Below are positions 4,048 through 43,040 of a stretch of 43,040 nucleotides of DNA, piece by piece. Position 1 is the stretch's first letter; every line of letters starts with the position of its first letter. This DNA is from Gemmatimonadota bacterium. GTDB lineage: Bacteria > Gemmatimonadota > Gemmatimonadetes > Gemmatimonadales > Gemmatimonadaceae. Below the pieces are notes generated by a model that did no database searches, was not told the DNA's origin, and saw nothing but the letters and a program-made list of their open reading frames with translations. The DNA is taken from assembly GCA_023249375.1 (NCBI GenBank), contig JAHFCT010000002.1, forward strand, positions 1-43,040. Reading direction: 5' to 3'. The position numbers were made by a program, and so were the translations under genes.

Positions 4048-4971
4048 ATGCTCAACATCGACCTTCGCGGCAAGCGCGCGCTTGTCGCCGGCGTCTCTGA
4101 CGACAACGGATTTGGCTTTGCCATCGCCAAGGCGCTCGCCGAGGCGGGCGCTAGCGTCAGCGTCGCCACGTGGCCGCCCGCGCTGAACATTTTTCGCAAC
4201 CTGCTTGATCGCGGCAAGCTCGACGACGCGCGCCGGCTGGCCGACGGCTCGCTGCTCACCTTCGAGCGCATCTATCCGCTCGATGCCGCCTTCGACACGC
4301 TCTCCGATGCACCGCAGGAGATCCGTGAGAACAAGCGGTACAAGGACTGCGGCGATTTTTCGATCGACGGGATGACCGCGCAGTTCCACACCGATTTTGG
4401 CGACCAGTCGCTCGACATTCTCGTGCACTCGCTCGCCAACGGCCCTGAGGTCAAGAAGCAGTTGCTCGACACGAGCCGCAACGGCTACCTCACCGCGCTG
4501 AGCATTTCGTCGTACTCGCTGGTGTCGATGCTCTCGCGGCTCGGGCCGATGATGCGCCGCGGGGGTTCCGTCGTCTCGCTGTCGTATCTGGCGGGCCAGC
4601 GCGTCATCCCGGGCTACGGCGGCGGCATGTCCACCGCCAAGGGTGCGCTCGAGAGCGATACGCGGACGTTGGCATTCGAAGCCGGACGCCGCTTCGGCAT
4701 TCGCGTCAATACCATTTCTGCCGGACCGTTGGCGTCGCGCGCGGCCAGCGCCATTGGCATCGTCGAAACGCTGGTCGCTTACTACAAGCTCAATGCACCG
4801 CTCCCCGAAGCACTGACCGCCACCGAAGTCGCTTTTGCCGCCGCGTTCCTCTGTTCGTCGTTGAGCAGCGGTATCACCGGGTCGACGACGTACGTCGACA
4901 AGGGCTACAACGCGATGGGCATGGCGGTGGCCATGCCGCCGGATTTCCCCGATCTCACCTCACGCACGTAA
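4048..4971 (+). CDS. fabI: Enoyl-[acyl-carrier-protein] reductase, plant/chlamydial type
   Basis: This 307-residue short-chain dehydrogenase family enzyme would reduce trans-2-enoyl-ACP with NAD(P)H in the last step of each fatty-acid elongation cycle. The nucleotide-binding region is RALVAGVSDDNGFGFAIAKALAE. The catalytic tyrosine and lysine are Y190 and K198 in GYGGGMSTAK, followed by ALESDTRTLAFEAG. The YGGGMSxAK motif (one residue longer than in E. coli FabI) and the extra loop at residues 75-105 (IYPLDAAFDTLSDAP, then NKRYKD) are the signature of chloroplast and chlamydial enzymes. No Shine-Dalgarno sequence precedes the ATG, and TACTGT lies 7 bases upstream, so the message could be leaderless. 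The next gene starts 9 bases after the stop. Confidence 0.92.
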   Translation: MLNIDLRGKRALVAGVSDDNGFGFAIAKALAEAGASVSVATWPPALNIFRNLLDRGKLDDARRLADGSLLTFERIYPLDAAFDTLSDAPQEIRENKRYKDCGDFSIDGMTAQFHTDFGDQSLDILVHSLANGPEVKKQLLDTSRNGYLTALSISSYSLVSMLSRLGPMMRRGGSVVSLSYLAGQRVIPGYGGGMSTAKGALESDTRTLAFEAGRRFGIRVNTISAGPLASRAASAIGIVETLVAYYKLNAPLPEALTATEVAFAAAFLCSSLSSGITGSTTYVDKGYNAMGMAVAMPPDFPDLTSRT

Positions 4972-4980
4972 TTCACTGCC

Positions 4981-5568
4981 ATGCGACGTTTGTTCTTTCC
5001 TGTTGCTGCCATCCTCGGCGTTGCCGCGTGCAACGCCCCGCCCAAGAACGATCCCAAGGCGCCGGCCGAAGCGCCCGCCGTCATCGACACGCGGCCGCCG
5101 GCACCGGCGCCGGTTGCACCCAGCCAGCCCAAGGTCAAGATCATTCCCGATGATCCGACCGAACGGAACATCGCGGTGGAACAACCCTACTCGCTGGCCG
5201 CGTTCACGATGCGCAACGGCGACATCGGCATGCTCGCGTCGGTCTATGCGCCAACGGCCACGCTGAAGCTCCCCGATACGACGGTCAGCACCAACCAGAG
5301 CATCGCGGAGTCACTGCACCGCTTCGCCATCAGCAAGTCGATGGCCTACTTCCAGCGGACGTCGCGGCGCCTGACGATCACCGATGATTCGACGCTGGTC
5401 GACAGCGGCACGTACGCCCTGATGACCTCCCGCACGAAGGGAGACACGATCACCGAGAAGGGACAGTACATCGCGCGCTGGCGCGCTCGGCCGAGTGGCA
5501 AGAACTGGGTCATGCTCGAAGATCAGATCCTGCCCGGAAAGATCGAGAAGAAGAAGAGCGGCAAGTAA
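4981..5568 (+). CDS. Lipoprotein with NTF2/SnoaL-like domain
   Basis: This 195-residue protein begins with a lipoprotein signal (MRRLFFPVAAILGVAAC, lipobox GVAAC, modified Cys at 17). A proline/alanine-rich linker follows to about residue 55. The rest (AVEQPYSLAAFTMRNGDIGMLASVYAPTATLKLP to WRARPSGKNWVMLEDQIL) has the pattern of an NTF2-like/DUF4440 cone fold: a helix, a short 'time and dose' segment and a closing beta sheet ending in a W. These folds act as small-ligand enzymes or as binding domains; no catalytic residues are evident. It follows fabI by 9 bases and ends before a strong bidirectional terminator. Confidence 0.7.
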   Translation: MRRLFFPVAAILGVAACNAPPKNDPKAPAEAPAVIDTRPPAPAPVAPSQPKVKIIPDDPTERNIAVEQPYSLAAFTMRNGDIGMLASVYAPTATLKLPDTTVSTNQSIAESLHRFAISKSMAYFQRTSRRLTITDDSTLVDSGTYALMTSRTKGDTITEKGQYIARWRARPSGKNWVMLEDQILPGKIEKKKSGK

Positions 5569-5584
5569 CGCGCGACGTGAAGCA

Positions 5585-5616
5585 CAAACGGGAGCGGCCA
5601 TCGCCGCTCCCGTTTG
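5585..5616. terminator. Bidirectional rho-independent terminator
   Basis: A perfect 14-bp stem (5585-5598 with 5603-5616, core AAACGGGAGCGGC) closes a CATC loop. The stem base is A-rich on the left and T-rich on the right. It lies between the convergent lipoprotein gene and the BNR protein gene and can serve both. Confidence 0.85.
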
Positions 5617-5671
5617 CTGTCACCGCACGATCTCCTGTGTCAGCAACAACGTGTTGTCGTCGTGCTCGCGC

Positions 5672-8600
5672 TTACCACTTGATCTTCTCACCCGCCCCGC
5701 TGTCAGTGTCGTCGTCCGCGGCGACCTTCGGCGCTTTCTTCTTGGGCGTCACCTCGGGCAAGCCCAGTTTCTTGAGCTGCTCGTTGAATGCCTTCAGGTC
5801 GTCCGTGTAGACCTTGTCCATGCGCTTGGCCTGCGCGTCGAGCTTGCCGTTCAGTTCCTTGAAGACCTGCATCGCCTGAACCGGCGGCCGGCCTGGCGAT
5901 GAGCCCGCCATGCCCAGCAGCGCGGCGATCTTGTTGTTGAGCTTGATCGGGAAGTTCAGCGGATCCTGCGAGCTCTGGTTCTTGACCTGATAGATCTCCG
6001 CCTCAACGTCCGTCACCTTGCCGGCCAGTGCCTTGCCCTGATCGCCGAGCTGCGGCGCCTGCTTCAGGCGGTCTGTCACCTGCGATTTCACGTCGCGCGC
6101 CGTGATCACGGCGTCGTTGGCCTCGCTCACCTTGTCGCGCACCTGGATGAGAAAGTTGAACTGCGCCACGAGGTCTTCCATCGAAGCCTTGAAGCGCGGG
6201 TCGGCCTTTACGGTGAAGGTCTGGCTTTGCGTTTCGCCGCCGGCCGTCAGCTTCACCGTGTACGTGCCGGGCAGGGCCAGCGGTCCCGTGACGTTGCCGG
6301 CCCAGAAGATCATGCCGTCAAATCGCGTGGCATCGGCGTAGCGGAGGTTCCAGTTGAACTGGTTGAGGCCGGTCTTGTTTGGCAGACGCTGCGGGCGCGG
6401 CGCGCCGCGCATCATCGCTTCCATGTCGCCAGCCGCACCGGCAGGTGCCGCGGGCGTCGAGTCGCTGCTGTATGACTTGATGAGACTCCCCTTCGCGTCG
6501 AGGAACTCGAGCGTCACGCGCGTGTTCGGATCCTTGAGCTGGTAGTAGACCACCGCGCCCGATGGCGGATTCTGTCCGGTGGGCGTTTCGCCGCCGAAGC
6601 CGGCGCCCGGAATACGGAAGCCGCCGCCCCAATCAATGCGAAACGCATCCGACGGCTTGTACAGGTGCGCCTTCTTCTCCATCACGGCCGCCGCGAGCTG
6701 CCGCAGCGGGGCGACGTCGTCCATGATCCAGAACGAACGGCCGTGTGTGCCGATCACGAGATCGTTGTCCTTGATCACCAAGTCGTGCACCGGCACCGAC
6801 GGCATGTTGCGCCGCAGCGACTGCCAGTGGCCGCCGTCGTCAAACGACACCCACACGCCCTTCTCGGTCGTTGCGTACAGTAGGCCGGCTTTCTTGGGAT
6901 CTTCGCGAATGGCGCGCGTGAACTCGTCGGCCGGAAGTCCGGTCACGATCTTCGTCCACGTCTTGCCGTAGTCCGTCGTCTTGTAGAGGATCGGCGAGAA
7001 GTCGTCTTGCTGGAACCGGTTCGCCGACACGTACGCCGTGCCGGCATTGAAGTGACCGGCGTCGATGAGCGACACGCGCGTGAAGTCGCCGATGTCCTTG
7101 GGCGTCACATTGACCCAGTTCGCACCGCCGTCCTTCGTAATCCAGATGAGACCGTCGTCCGTGCCCGCCCAAATGAGTCCCTGCGCAACCGGCGACAAAC
7201 CAAGCGCGAAGATCACGCCGTATGTCTCGACGCCGGTCTGGTCCTTGGTGATCGGACCGCCCGATGCGCCCATCGTCTTGGGATCGCGGCGCGCGAGTGG
7301 CGGCGAGACAATCGTCCAGCTCTCGCCTTCGGTCGTCGTCTTGAAGAGCTGGCTGCCCGCCGCGTAGATCACCGTCGGCGTGAATGGCGAGAACATGATT
7401 GGGAACGTCCATTGGAACCGGTACTGGATGTCCTCCGACGAATAGCCCATCGGGTTGTCCGGCCACGGACTCACGTTGCGCTCGAGATCCGTCGTGAGAT
7501 CCTTGCGCGTCAGCAAGCCGCCGTAGCTGCCGGCATACACGATGTCGGGCTTCACGGGATTGGGCGCGATGTACCCCGACTCGCCGCCGCCCGCATCCTT
7601 GAAGTCGGCGATGGTCATCCCGCCTTCCTTACGCGACGGACCGCACAGCGTGCTGTTGTCCTGCTGCGCCCCGCACACCTGGTACGGGAAATGATTGGTC
7701 GTCGTCACGTGATACATCTGCGCCGTGGCATACCCCTGATTGGTCCACGCTCGGCCACCGTTAAACGACACGTTGGCGCCGCCGTCGTTGGCCTCGATCA
7801 TCCGGTTGCCGTCATTCGACGCGATCCACAGATCGTGGTTGTCGCCGTGCGGCACGGCCATGTTCTGCGGGAACGTCTTGCCGCCGTCGCGCGACCGGAA
7901 CCACTGCACGTTCAGCGCGTACACGATGTTCGAGTCCTTGGGGTCGGCCACGATGCGCGAGTAGTACCACGCGCGCTGCCGAAGTTTCCGTTCGTCGTTG
8001 ACCTTGGCCCACGTCGCGCCGCCGTCATCGGACCGATACACGCCCCCTTCGTCGGCCTCGATCAGCGCCCACACACGGCTCGACTTCGCGCCCGAGATTG
8101 CCAGGCCGATCTTGCCAAGCACGCCTTTGGGCAGTCCCGGATTGTTCGTCAGTTCGATCCACGACTCCCCGCCGTCCGTGCTCTTCATGATGCCGCCGCC
8201 GGCGCCGCCTGACTCGAGCGACCATGGCGTGCGGTACGCGCGCCAGAAAGCGGCGTACAGCACGTTGGCATCGTTGGGATCGAGGTCGATGTCCGAAATA
8301 CCGGTGTTCGCATCGCGGTACAGCACCTTGCGCCATGTCTTGCCGCCATCGGTGGTCTTGAACACGCCGCGCTGTTCGTTGGGGCCGAACGCGTGCCCGA
8401 GCACGCCGATCCAGACGATATCCGGATTGGTCGGATGAATGCGAATGCGCCGCGTGTGATTCTTCACGTCGAAGAACGCAATGCGCGTCCACGTCTTGCC
8501 CGCGTCTTTCGACGTCCACACGCCATCGCCCGGTGCGGTGTTGCCGCGAATGTCGGCTTCGCCGCCCGCGGCCCAGACGACATCAGGATTCGATGCGGCC

Positions 8601-25250: not shown

Positions 25251-26282
25251 ATGCCTTCCTCTCGCCGCTTCCCTTGGGCCAACTGGCCTTCCAAGGAACT
25301 GCTGCAGCTTCGCATCAAGGATCTCGGTGTTGTCATCGAGGGGACATGGCTCGAGGGGTGTGTCAACGACCTCTATGCTGAGCTCGACGCGCGCCGGATT
25401 CGCGTGCATCCGCATGTCTGGATCAGCGATGAGTGGTTTTCGCCGGGCAACGTGCCGGGCATCGCCATTCCGTTCTACCTCACGCATCCGCGGCTGATGA
25501 AACTCGAGCGCTCGCAGTTGCTCGAGGTTGAGGGCGGCACATATACGGAATGCATGCAGATCCTGCGCCACGAGTGCGGGCACGCCGTGCAGCACGCTTT
25601 TCAGCTGCATCGGCGGCGCGAGTGGCAACGGCTCTTTGGCATTTCGTCCACCAAGTATCCCGAGTCGTATCGGCCGAATCCCGCCAGCAAGAAGTACGTG
25701 CAGCATCTGCGGCGCTGGTATGCGCAGAGTCATCCCGACGAGGACTTCGCCGAAACATTCGCCGTCTGGCTCGCGCCGCGGTCCGATTGGCGCCGGCGCT
25801 ATGCCGGCTGGCACGCGCTCCAGAAGCTGCAGTACGTCGATCAGCTGATGGAGGAACTCGCGGGCCAGAAGCCCAAGGTGACCACGCGCACCGTCATCGA
25901 TCCGGCACGCACGCTCACCCGCACGCTGTTCGAGCATTACACCTACCGGCGCGCGCTGTATTCGGTGGAACACCCCACCACGTACGACGAGGACCTGCTG
26001 CGCCTGTTCTCCGATGCGCCCAAACATCGCGAACACGAAGCGGCCGGCCTCTTCCTGCGCCGCCATCGCCGCGAGATACGTCGCGTCGTGTCGCGCTGGA
26101 CGGGTGAGTACCAGTTCACGCTCGACCAGGTGCTGCATGACATGATCGGCCGCTGCAGCCAGCTCAAGCTCCGCGTCGTTGGCCGTGAGCGGCAGCTGCT
26201 CATGGACTTCATGGTCTTGCTGACGGCCCGCACCATGGAGTTCCTCTCCAAGCACGGCCGCCGCGACTGGATTGCCGTATGA
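25251..26282 (+). CDS. Putative zinc metallopeptidase (Peptidase_Mx-like)
   Basis: This protein has 343 residues when read from ATG 25251; an in-frame GTG 17 codons earlier is possible. The zinc motif HECGH is at 107-111 (ILRHECGHAVQHAF). A second conserved block SHPDEDFAETFAVWLAP at 160-176 supplies a likely third ligand (E168), matching the HPxEDxAETxA pattern of the 'putative zinc-binding metallopeptidase' family. There is no signal peptide, so it is probably cytoplasmic. The C-terminal 150 residues are basic and helical. Its stop overlaps the ATG of an ATP-grasp ligase (ATGA), which implies a joint pathway, such as trimming and ligation of a peptide. Substrate unknown. Confidence 0.75.
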   Translation: MPSSRRFPWANWPSKELLQLRIKDLGVVIEGTWLEGCVNDLYAELDARRIRVHPHVWISDEWFSPGNVPGIAIPFYLTHPRLMKLERSQLLEVEGGTYTECMQILRHECGHAVQHAFQLHRRREWQRLFGISSTKYPESYRPNPASKKYVQHLRRWYAQSHPDEDFAETFAVWLAPRSDWRRRYAGWHALQKLQYVDQLMEELAGQKPKVTTRTVIDPARTLTRTLFEHYTYRRALYSVEHPTTYDEDLLRLFSDAPKHREHEAAGLFLRRHRREIRRVVSRWTGEYQFTLDQVLHDMIGRCSQLKLRVVGRERQLLMDFMVLLTARTMEFLSKHGRRDWIAV

Positions 26283-27289
26283 GAAAACTCCGCGTGCTGG
26301 CGCTCATGCACCCGCAGTTGGTTCCCCCCGATTCGCTCGAGGGGCAGAGCGACAAGGACATCAACCGATGGAAGACGGAGTTCGATGTCGTCAGCCATCT
26401 GCGCGGCTGCGGCCATGAACTGCGCCCGCTTGGCGTGCAGTACGAACTCGCCCCGGTGCGCGATGCCGTGGAGTCGTTTCAGCCCCACGTCGTCTTCAAC
26501 CTGCTCGAGGAATTCCACGGCGAGGTGGTCTTCGATCACAACGTCGTCAGCTATCTCGAGTTGCTCCGCATTCCGTACACCGGCTGCAACCCGCGCGGCA
26601 TGATCCTCTCGCGCGGCAAGGCGCTGTCCAAGAAGCTCTGCGCCTATCACCGCATTCGCGTGCCCGAGTTCGCCGTCTTCCCCATGGGACGAAAAGTCCG
26701 CCGCCCCGCGCACCTCGCGTATCCGGTCATCGTCAAGTCGCTCATCGAGCATGCCTCCGTCGGCATTGCCAAGGCGTCGGTCGTCGACTCCGATGACAAG
26801 CTGGCCGAACGCGTGCGCTTCGTGCACGAACGCATTGGCACCGATGCCATCGCCGAGCAGTTCATCGATGGCCGCGAGGTGTACGTGAGCGTGATGGGCA
26901 ACGAACGCCTCGTCGCCTTCCCGCCCTTTGAACTCGTCGCCGACAAGCGCCCCGCCGATGAGCCGCTCATCGCCACCGCGCGCGCCAAGCATGACATCGA
27001 GTACCAGGAGCGCCACGGCATCGACATTCGCCCCGCCGAACTCCTCCCCGATCTCGCCGCCGAAGCCGCGCACGTCAGCAAGCGCATCTATCGCATCCTT
27101 GAACTCAGCGGCTACGCCCGCCTCGACTTCCGGCTCGATGCCCGCGGTGACCTCTATTTTCTCGAGGCGAATCCGAATCCCGAGATCGCCGCGCGCGAGG
27201 AGTTCGCTTCGTCGGCGCGTCACGCGGGGGTGGCATACCCCGATCTACTCGAACGCATTCTCCGTCTGGGCCTGCGTCAGCAAGCCTGA
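26279..27289 (+). CDS. D-Ala-D-Ala ligase-like ATP-grasp enzyme
   Basis: This 336-residue protein has the ATP-grasp fold of the Ddl/RimK superfamily and should form an amide or peptide bond with ATP. Visible parts: an N-terminal Rossmann-like domain (LRVLALMHPQLVPPD), the substrate-contact stretch VVFNLLEEFHGEVVFDHNVVSYLELLRIPYTGCN, ATP-binding YPVIVKSLIEHASVGIAKASVV, IAEQFIDGREVYVSVMG, and the metal/active-site end FLEANPNPEI near 292-302. True Ddl enzymes have NTLPGMT there; this one has NPNPEI, so the substrate differs from D-alanine. It is ATGA-coupled to the metallopeptidase. A separate true ddl lies at the right end of the window. Confidence 0.85.
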   Translation: MRKLRVLALMHPQLVPPDSLEGQSDKDINRWKTEFDVVSHLRGCGHELRPLGVQYELAPVRDAVESFQPHVVFNLLEEFHGEVVFDHNVVSYLELLRIPYTGCNPRGMILSRGKALSKKLCAYHRIRVPEFAVFPMGRKVRRPAHLAYPVIVKSLIEHASVGIAKASVVDSDDKLAERVRFVHERIGTDAIAEQFIDGREVYVSVMGNERLVAFPPFELVADKRPADEPLIATARAKHDIEYQERHGIDIRPAELLPDLAAEAAHVSKRIYRILELSGYARLDFRLDARGDLYFLEANPNPEIAAREEFASSARHAGVAYPDLLERILRLGLRQQA

Positions 27290-27402: not shown

Positions 27403-28722
27403 ATGCGCGTTTTCAACTCGGCACGCGCCATGTGCGCTGCCATGATCGTGTTGCGCGCTGCACCCGTGCACGCCCAGTCGGGCGTCGCTGCGGTTGCGGT
27501 GCAGGCTGAGGCGTCAGCCGCCGCACCCTCCGCCGCGCTCCGCGTCTATCTCGACTGCCGCACCGGCGGTTGTGACCGCGACCTGTTCATCACGGAGGTG
27601 AGGTTCGCCTCGCTGACGCGCGACCGGGCCGATGCCGATGTGCACCTGCTCGTCACCGGACTCAGCACCGGCGCGGGCGGACGCCAGCTCACGCTGCAGT
27701 TCATTGGCCTGCACGCGTTCGAAGGGCGCGCCGACACGGTCATCACCACGCTGCCGCCGAACATCGCGTACGACCGCACGCGGCGTGAGATCATCCGCGT
27801 GGCCAAGCTCGGGCTGGTGCGATACGCGCTGCAGACGCCCAGTGCCGCCGGCCTTCACCTCGATGACGCCGACGTGCCAGCCGCACGGCGGGAGGCGCAG
27901 ATTCGCGCCGCCGATCCGTGGAACTTCTGGGTCGTCTCCCTCGGCGTGAACGGCGGCGCCAACGCCGAGAGCCGTTCGTCGCGCGGCAACGCCGGCGCGT
28001 CCGTCAACGCGCGCCGCATCACCGACGCGTGGAAGATCAATGTCGCCGCCAACGGCAATTACCGGCAGTCCACGTATCAGCTGAGCGACAGTACGCGCGA
28101 CACCTACATCTTGCGCGACTTTGGCGCCCGCGGCCGCATTGTGCGCAACTCGGGGGCGCACTGGTCCACCGGCGTCATTGGCAACATCGGCCACACCGAC
28201 TACGCCAATCAGGACACCTATGCGCGCATCGGCGCCACAGTCGAATACAGCATCTTCCCGTGGAGCCAGGCCTCCACGCGGCAGCTCGTCGCCGCGTGGC
28301 AGGTGGCGGTGCAGCACTTCGACTACATCCAGACCACGCTCTATCTCAAGGACCACGAGACGCGTCCGCATCACCAGCTCATCATCGCCGGCAGCACGCG
28401 TCAGCCGTGGGGCAACGCCGACATCTCCGCCAACTGGTCGCAGTACCTCAATGACATGTCCAAGAATCACCTGGGCATCAGCAGCAATGCGTCGCTGCGC
28501 ATCACGCGCGGCCTGTCGCTGAACGTCGGTGCCTTTGCCAGCCGTGTGCGCGATCAGCTCTACCTCCCCAAGGGCGACGCCACCGACGAGCAGATCCTGA
28601 CGCAGCAGCGGGCACTCGCCACGAGCTTCGTCCGCGGCGGATCACTCAGCGTGTCGTACACCTTCGGGTCGATCTACAACACGATTGTGAATCCGCGGCT
28701 CGACGTCATGGGCGGGTTCTAG
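27403..28722 (+). CDS. Exported outer-membrane-barrel-like protein, paralogue 1
   Basis: This 439-residue protein has an N-terminal export signal (MRVFNSARAMCAAMIVLRAAPVHAQS). Residues about 40-150 form a small domain starting LRVYLDCRTGGCDRDLFITEV. The remainder has alternating beta-strand pattern with aromatic ends (WKINVAANGNYRQSTYQL; HWSTGVIGNIGHTDYANQ; QVAVQHFDYIQTTLYLKDHETRP; YTFGSIYNTIVNPR), which fits a beta-barrel in the outer membrane. A second gene at 32589-33914 is clearly homologous over its full length. No named family is recognised. No Shine-Dalgarno sequence precedes the ATG. Confidence 0.75.
   Translation: MRVFNSARAMCAAMIVLRAAPVHAQSGVAAVAVQAEASAAAPSAALRVYLDCRTGGCDRDLFITEVRFASLTRDRADADVHLLVTGLSTGAGGRQLTLQFIGLHAFEGRADTVITTLPPNIAYDRTRREIIRVAKLGLVRYALQTPSAAGLHLDDADVPAARREAQIRAADPWNFWVVSLGVNGGANAESRSSRGNAGASVNARRITDAWKINVAANGNYRQSTYQLSDSTRDTYILRDFGARGRIVRNSGAHWSTGVIGNIGHTDYANQDTYARIGATVEYSIFPWSQASTRQLVAAWQVAVQHFDYIQTTLYLKDHETRPHHQLIIAGSTRQPWGNADISANWSQYLNDMSKNHLGISSNASLRITRGLSLNVGAFASRVRDQLYLPKGDATDEQILTQQRALATSFVRGGSLSVSYTFGSIYNTIVNPRLDVMGGF

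Positions 28723-42200: not shown

Positions 42201-42201
<1 letters not shown>
41542..42201 (-). CDS. Cysteine-less QueE-like (degenerate radical SAM) protein
   Basis: This 219-residue protein follows the layout of 7-carboxy-7-deazaguanine synthase (QueE) but lacks its iron-sulfur cluster. VQAQGVWAGRRQLFVRFAG (18-36) matches the QueE start IQGEGxxxGRRQxFVRFAG. Where QueE then has CNLRCxYCDT, this protein reads EAETATMY, with no cysteine. IGGRDPLGNLEFL (67-79) stands for the SAM-binding TGGEPLLQxxFL. PVPLMLDSDGQRPEALGAL follows the family's ETNGxxPxxL. VVVHPVLTGEPPVLDRRWSTLLEQA and the final TRLALRLPAPAGLR match QPVTxxxxPP and the VRVxPQxHxxLG ending. It is ATGA-coupled to ddl and followed by rhomboid and queF. 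Radical-SAM chemistry is ruled out; another role is unknown. Confidence 0.78.

Positions 42202-43040
<839 letters not shown>

Follow-up and report, generated by a model that had tools for sequence, protein, structure and literature searches.

The window analyzed here, a stretch of 43,040 nucleotides from a genome of the family Gemmatimonadaceae (Gemmatimonadota), contained a gene for a zinc peptidase directly followed by a gene for an ATP-grasp ligase with the fold of D-alanine-D-alanine ligase (Ddl). The stop codon of the former and the start codon of the latter share four nucleotides, a layout that points to translational coupling (Table 1). An earlier note had described an HECGH peptidase with an HPxEDxAETxA block overlapping a Ddl-like ligase, and the ORFs, motifs, and coordinates were all confirmed. 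The start of the peptidase gene was backed by homologues, whose similarity mostly extended from residues 1-9 onward. Because homologues in other phyla retained both ORFs, their motifs, and mostly the overlap, and dN/dS was 0.05-0.15 for both genes alike, the two ORFs are not chance reading frames. Additionally, the window contained a true ddl outside the pair, as the note had claimed, which carries NTLPGMT and fell together with DdlB of E. coli in the phylogeny.

Table 1. Coordinates of the peptidase-ligase pair, its motifs, and the comparison gene in the window
Feature	Position	Strand	Remarks
Peptidase ORF, 343 aa	25251-26282	+	ATG at 25251, stop at 26282
HECGH zinc-binding/catalytic motif, residues 107-111	25569-25583	+	H107, E108, and H111 invariant in 47 aligned relatives
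HPDEDFAETFA block, residues 161-171	25731-25763	+	H161, P162, E164, D165, A167, E168, T169, F170, and A171 invariant in 47 aligned relatives
Peptidase C-terminal helical part, about residues 207-343	25869-26282	+	From the structure model; no Pfam match
ATGA shared by peptidase stop and ligase start	26279-26282	+	Translational coupling
Ddl-fold ATP-grasp ligase ORF, 336 aa	26279-27289	+	ATG at 26279, stop at 27289
EANPNPEIAAREEFA segment of the ligase	27164-27208	+	Mg2+ ligands kept; Ddl G276/S281/L282 replaced by E302/E307/E308
True ddl (D-alanine-D-alanine ligase), outside the pair	42201-43040	-	Partial, runs past the window edge

Family and fold of the peptidase

The peptidase matched PF15887 (Peptidase_Mx) with 34.4 bits against a cut-off of 27, and the HExxH motif and downstream acidic zinc ligand (EDxAE block) of this family were present and conserved in the 47 relatives. 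By analogy with the zincin family, the third zinc ligand is probably E164 or E168. The AlphaFold2 model (pLDDT 88.7) consisted of a zincin part (about residues 1-206) and the helical C-terminal part. Residues 1-206 resembled the anthrax lethal factor/PPEP zincins (Z 8.7, rmsd 3.7, 157 aligned residues, 13% identity), and PPEP-type matches reached Z 6-7. This likeness is one of fold only, with 13-17% identity over these matches and no secretion or toxin parts in the window peptidase; its PF07737 match fell below the cut-off, and a PDB sequence search found no relative.

The window peptidase differs from other Peptidase_Mx proteins in lacking N-terminal zinc ribbons, which are present in clade C (see below), and in having the additional C-terminal part. 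This part is unnecessary for pairing, since it is missing from five paired relatives (L061, L063, L064, L065, and L067). The peptidases of these loci comprise only about 240 aa, and most are separated from the ligase by 29-40 nt without overlap. The peptidase start, judged by eye, had no evident signal sequence, and thus both enzymes are probably cytosolic.

Fold and acceptor pocket of the ligase

The ligase matched PF07478, the C-terminal ATP-grasp domain of Ddl (EC 6.3.2.4), with 93 bits against a cut-off of 24, and the top solved match of its AlphaFold2 model (pLDDT 90.4) was P. aeruginosa DdlA, aligned over the whole chain (Z 33.7, rmsd 2.3, 289 aligned residues). Despite this fold, its scores were below the cut-offs of the curated Ddl families (PRK01372.1, 124 bits vs 243; TIGR01205, 109 vs 246), and the Ddl N-domain PF01820 scored 12.1 against a cut-off of 34.6. 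No RimK match was obtained in a profile search up to E 1. In a tree built by quick search, the ligases of clades A, B, and C formed a single clade with L163 and L178 (SH-aLRT 97), and Ddl formed a separate clade (100).

Active-site residues were compared by alignment to DdlB of E. coli, whose sequence was verified with 2dln and whose numbering is used hereafter. As in Ddl and VanA relatives, the residues for ATP, Mg2+, and the oxyanion (K97, K144, E180, E187, R255, D257, E270, and N272) were all kept in the window ligase, as well as in 122 of 122 ligases linked to a peptidase, with rare Asp at E187 and E270. In contrast, the window ligase had His, Glu, Glu, and Glu at the positions of Tyr216, Gly276, Ser281, and Leu282. 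In Ddl, Tyr216, Ser281, and Leu282, together with Lys215, have roles at the second D-alanine site. Window residues K237-H238 were placed at Lys215/Tyr216 according to the larger of two alignments, the smaller of which differed around the omega loop. Linked ligases had His or Trp at position 216 (with three exceptions), Glu, Asp, Tyr, Phe, Gln, or Trp at 276, and mostly Glu or Gln at 281, while the nine Ddl controls all had Y, G, S, and L at the four positions. In the more distant clades, not every ligase had acidic residues at 276 and 281, but position 282 was Glu or Asp in every one of the 122 linked ligases and Leu in all controls. An acidic 282 was also found in 8 of 17 unlinked homologues, namely six peptidase-less members of clade A and L163 and L178, which belong to the same larger clade as the linked ligases.

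These results bear out the claims that the metal/active-site end of the ligase departs from the NTLPGMT of Ddl and that, judged by its sequence and acceptor pocket, the enzyme is not a Ddl. D-Ala-D-Ala ligase activity appears unlikely from the sequence, because the acceptor-pocket residues of Ddl are replaced, though those for ATP and Mg2+ are kept. The pair might instead combine a second D-Ala-D-Ala or D-Ala-D-X ligase of the Van type with a VanX-like dipeptidase in the remodelling of cell-wall precursors. The Ddl fold (Z 33) and the His at the Tyr216 position, which VanA has as well, agree with such a role. We consider it very improbable, however, given the replacement of Gly276, Ser281, and Leu282, the scores far under the Ddl/Van family cut-offs, the normal ddl already in the window, and the lack of cell-wall genes among conserved or scanned neighbours.

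The nearest non-Ddl relatives outside the clade were the ligases of L158-L160 and L115-L117 (about 30% identity), which differ from those of the pair in having neither a Peptidase_Mx-family neighbour nor an acidic 282. Tandem Ddl-like ATP-grasp genes without a peptidase were observed at L158:5162-7071, L159:4804-6629, and L160:4555-6494, with a separate active-site signature for each gene (NPLPGI..., NPNPDL...); such tandems recur in Gemmatimonadota and apparently also in the phylum of L107. Additionally, distant Ddl-like ligases were encoded beside genes for lysine 2,3-aminomutase and gamma-glutamyltransferase on a Bradyrhizobium plasmid (L116:2198-6963) and beside diaminopropionate genes and a KamA-family gene on a Thioflavicoccus plasmid (L117:2557-8038). 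These two loci are likely small amide metabolite clusters. Tandem and metabolite-cluster paralogues alike had other residues in the pocket.

Conservation and gene order of the pair

A scan of genome contigs yielded 199 ligase relatives, and 80 loci were retained. The peptidase gene lay directly upstream of the ligase gene in 76 of these, with the exact 4-nt overlap in 65 and a gap of 4-47 nt in 11. The carriers belonged to Gemmatimonadota, Alphaproteobacteria, Acidobacteria/Thermoanaerobaculia, one Gammaproteobacterium, one Deltaproteobacterium, and one Polyangiaceae (Myxococcota) MAG; as many pair-carrying genomes are MAGs, single taxon placements may be wrong. The possibility raised in the earlier note that the pair might not be conserved is thus contradicted by its recurrence across several phyla. 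Ligases of the pair clade were common in the Gemmatimonadaceae and rare in Alphaproteobacteria, where 2 of the 190 sampled had one at high identity. In the phylum to which L107 belongs, 14 genomes out of 99 encoded such a ligase; the peptidase adjoined 12 of the 14 ligase relatives there, and one more was about 4 kb off. At L195, peptidase and ligase genes (2-844 and 4960-5955) were located on the same strand about 4 kb apart in reversed order, with the ligase upstream. Protein distances of ligase and peptidase correlated with r 0.89 (shuffled maximum, 0.14), which fits joint inheritance, as expected, although shared species history also yields such a correlation.

Relatives at about 35-44% identity were also paired. 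In clade B, the peptidase gene was upstream, the matched stretches lying about 100-300 nt apart, or it was convergent, and L181-L183 were arranged likewise; in clade C, the ligase gene came first, followed by a gene for a peptidase with N-terminal zinc ribbons and PF15887. As pairing has outlasted large sequence divergence and occurs in three gene orders, common descent by itself does not account for the neighbourhood of the two genes. At the loci L145, L146, L149, L150, and L157, a conserved row of genes encoded a class V aminotransferase, LOG-like and deoxyhypusine-synthase-like proteins, an MFS carrier, the ligase, and the zinc-ribbon peptidase; the aminotransferase was not observed in L146.

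In 150 Gemmatimonadota genomes, hand comparison placed the ligase gene next to 55 of 57 peptidase hits (about 1.3 kb away in G061), and the two hits without an adjoining ligase were at a contig end (G014) or weak (G147). Clade A ligases without a peptidase were found in G043, G069, L078, L080, L098, and L099, and also in L177/L196. Because the peptidase hardly ever occurs without the ligase, and the ligase sometimes occurs without the peptidase, this pattern of presence and absence suggests that the peptidase acts on the product of the ligase, which it would hydrolyze or trim in turnover or maturation. A rather unlikely alternative is that the peptidase acts first and liberates a fragment of a protein, either a peptide or an amine, which the ligase then caps or extends. 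The peptidase gene does lead the coupled mRNA, and zincins of the lethal factor/PPEP type, to which the match is one of fold only, cut exposed protein segments. However, such an order of action accords poorly with the several genomes that keep the ligase without the peptidase and with the reversed gene order of clade C.

Surroundings and possible function of the pair

Neighbour clustering of the 80 loci found no third gene common across phyla, and the flanking genes were by Pfam lineage-specific or mutually unrelated (FtsY-type GTPase, trehalose phosphatase, and others); a third gene or pathway partner was rejected on this basis. On the 3' side of the ligase gene, positions 27403-28722 (+) encode a 439-aa protein with no Pfam match over the cut-off. 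As for the Anbu/alpha-E system with a circularly permuted ATP-grasp protein, genes for alpha-E, transglutaminase, and Anbu were not seen among the flanking genes in the general neighbour scan. A defence role was rejected, as PADLOC gave no defence-system match, and so was a mobile or viral origin, since the window ligase had no plasmid relative at E 1e-30 and its ten relatives on viral contigs were distant (<=38% identity).

The earlier note had reported no precursor peptide gene between or beside the two genes, and this was upheld: the 4-nt overlap leaves no room for one, and clustering of short ORFs within 900 nt yielded only families confined to Gemmatimonadota, none being conserved beyond this phylum. 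A dedicated precursor peptide is unlikely; a housekeeping protein or a common metabolite would be the more plausible substrate. Although the combination of ATP-grasp ligase and peptidase is a theme of RiPP clusters, a graspetide-like cluster with a hidden precursor is the least probable of the readings considered, because the window ligase is Ddl-like without a RimK match, no short ORF is shared across phyla, and the neighbours are unrelated.

ATP-grasp amide ligases and metallopeptidases also occur together in the NAGGN osmolyte system, which consists of the ngg ligase, asnO, and an M42 peptidase, and in LysX-LysW-LysK. These systems differ from the pair in having RimK-type ligases, other peptidase families, and extra partner genes. 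Moreover, the LysW carrier (TIGR01206) had no match in the window genome, which is 96% complete, while the controls were positive. Among the open-licence papers searched, none was found to describe the pair.

The firmest conclusion from the data is that the zinc peptidase and the non-Ddl amidoligase form a functional unit. Of the make-and-trim peptide system suggested in the earlier note, the conserved coupling and the departure from Ddl are supported, and the product may or may not be a peptide. We tentatively favour, at somewhat less than an even chance, a self-contained cytoplasmic two-gene module in which the ATP-driven amidoligase uses an amine other than D-alanine and the peptidase hydrolyzes or trims the product. 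The ligase would use ATP to activate a carboxylate as an acyl phosphate and then join it to the amine. Because, in the alignment, acidic residues stand where the second D-alanine is bound in Ddl, the acceptor may be cationic or carboxylate-free. A bolder version, which we regard as possible but doubtful, is a phylum-crossing cycle of ligation and cleavage without any precursor gene, in which the Ddl-derived ligase couples such an acceptor to a protein or a common metabolite and the bond is then reversed or trimmed by the dedicated zincin.

As a special case of the two-gene module, the ligase could modify the carboxylate of a protein with an amino acid or amine, a reversible tag that the peptidase would remove, in the manner of TTL and vasohibins, which add and remove a residue on tubulin. 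The dedicated peptidase and the lack of a precursor gene would suit such a tag, as would the zinc ribbons of the clade C peptidases, which could bind macromolecules; we nevertheless hold it to be unlikely, as the nearest solved relatives all act on small amino acids and no protein target was seen. The acidic acceptor pocket and the operon-like row of clade C also recall conjugation of polyamines or polycations, in which the ligase would amidate a polyamine and the peptidase release it, as in the glutathionylspermidine enzymes. This reading is less probable still. The linkage is limited to one family, where inherited synteny suffices, and deoxyhypusine-synthase-like genes occurred in 136 of 150 genomes, being located on another contig in the window genome; for these reasons the link through this neighbour was rejected and not counted as evidence.

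Ddl-fold ligases are routinely annotated as cell-wall enzymes, and the linked clade is separable from Ddl across phyla. The acidic residue at the position of DdlB Leu282, together with the ligase's own peptidase, provides a diagnostic by which such annotations can be corrected. The pair described here also offers two genes through which a new protein modification or amide-bond metabolite might be sought.
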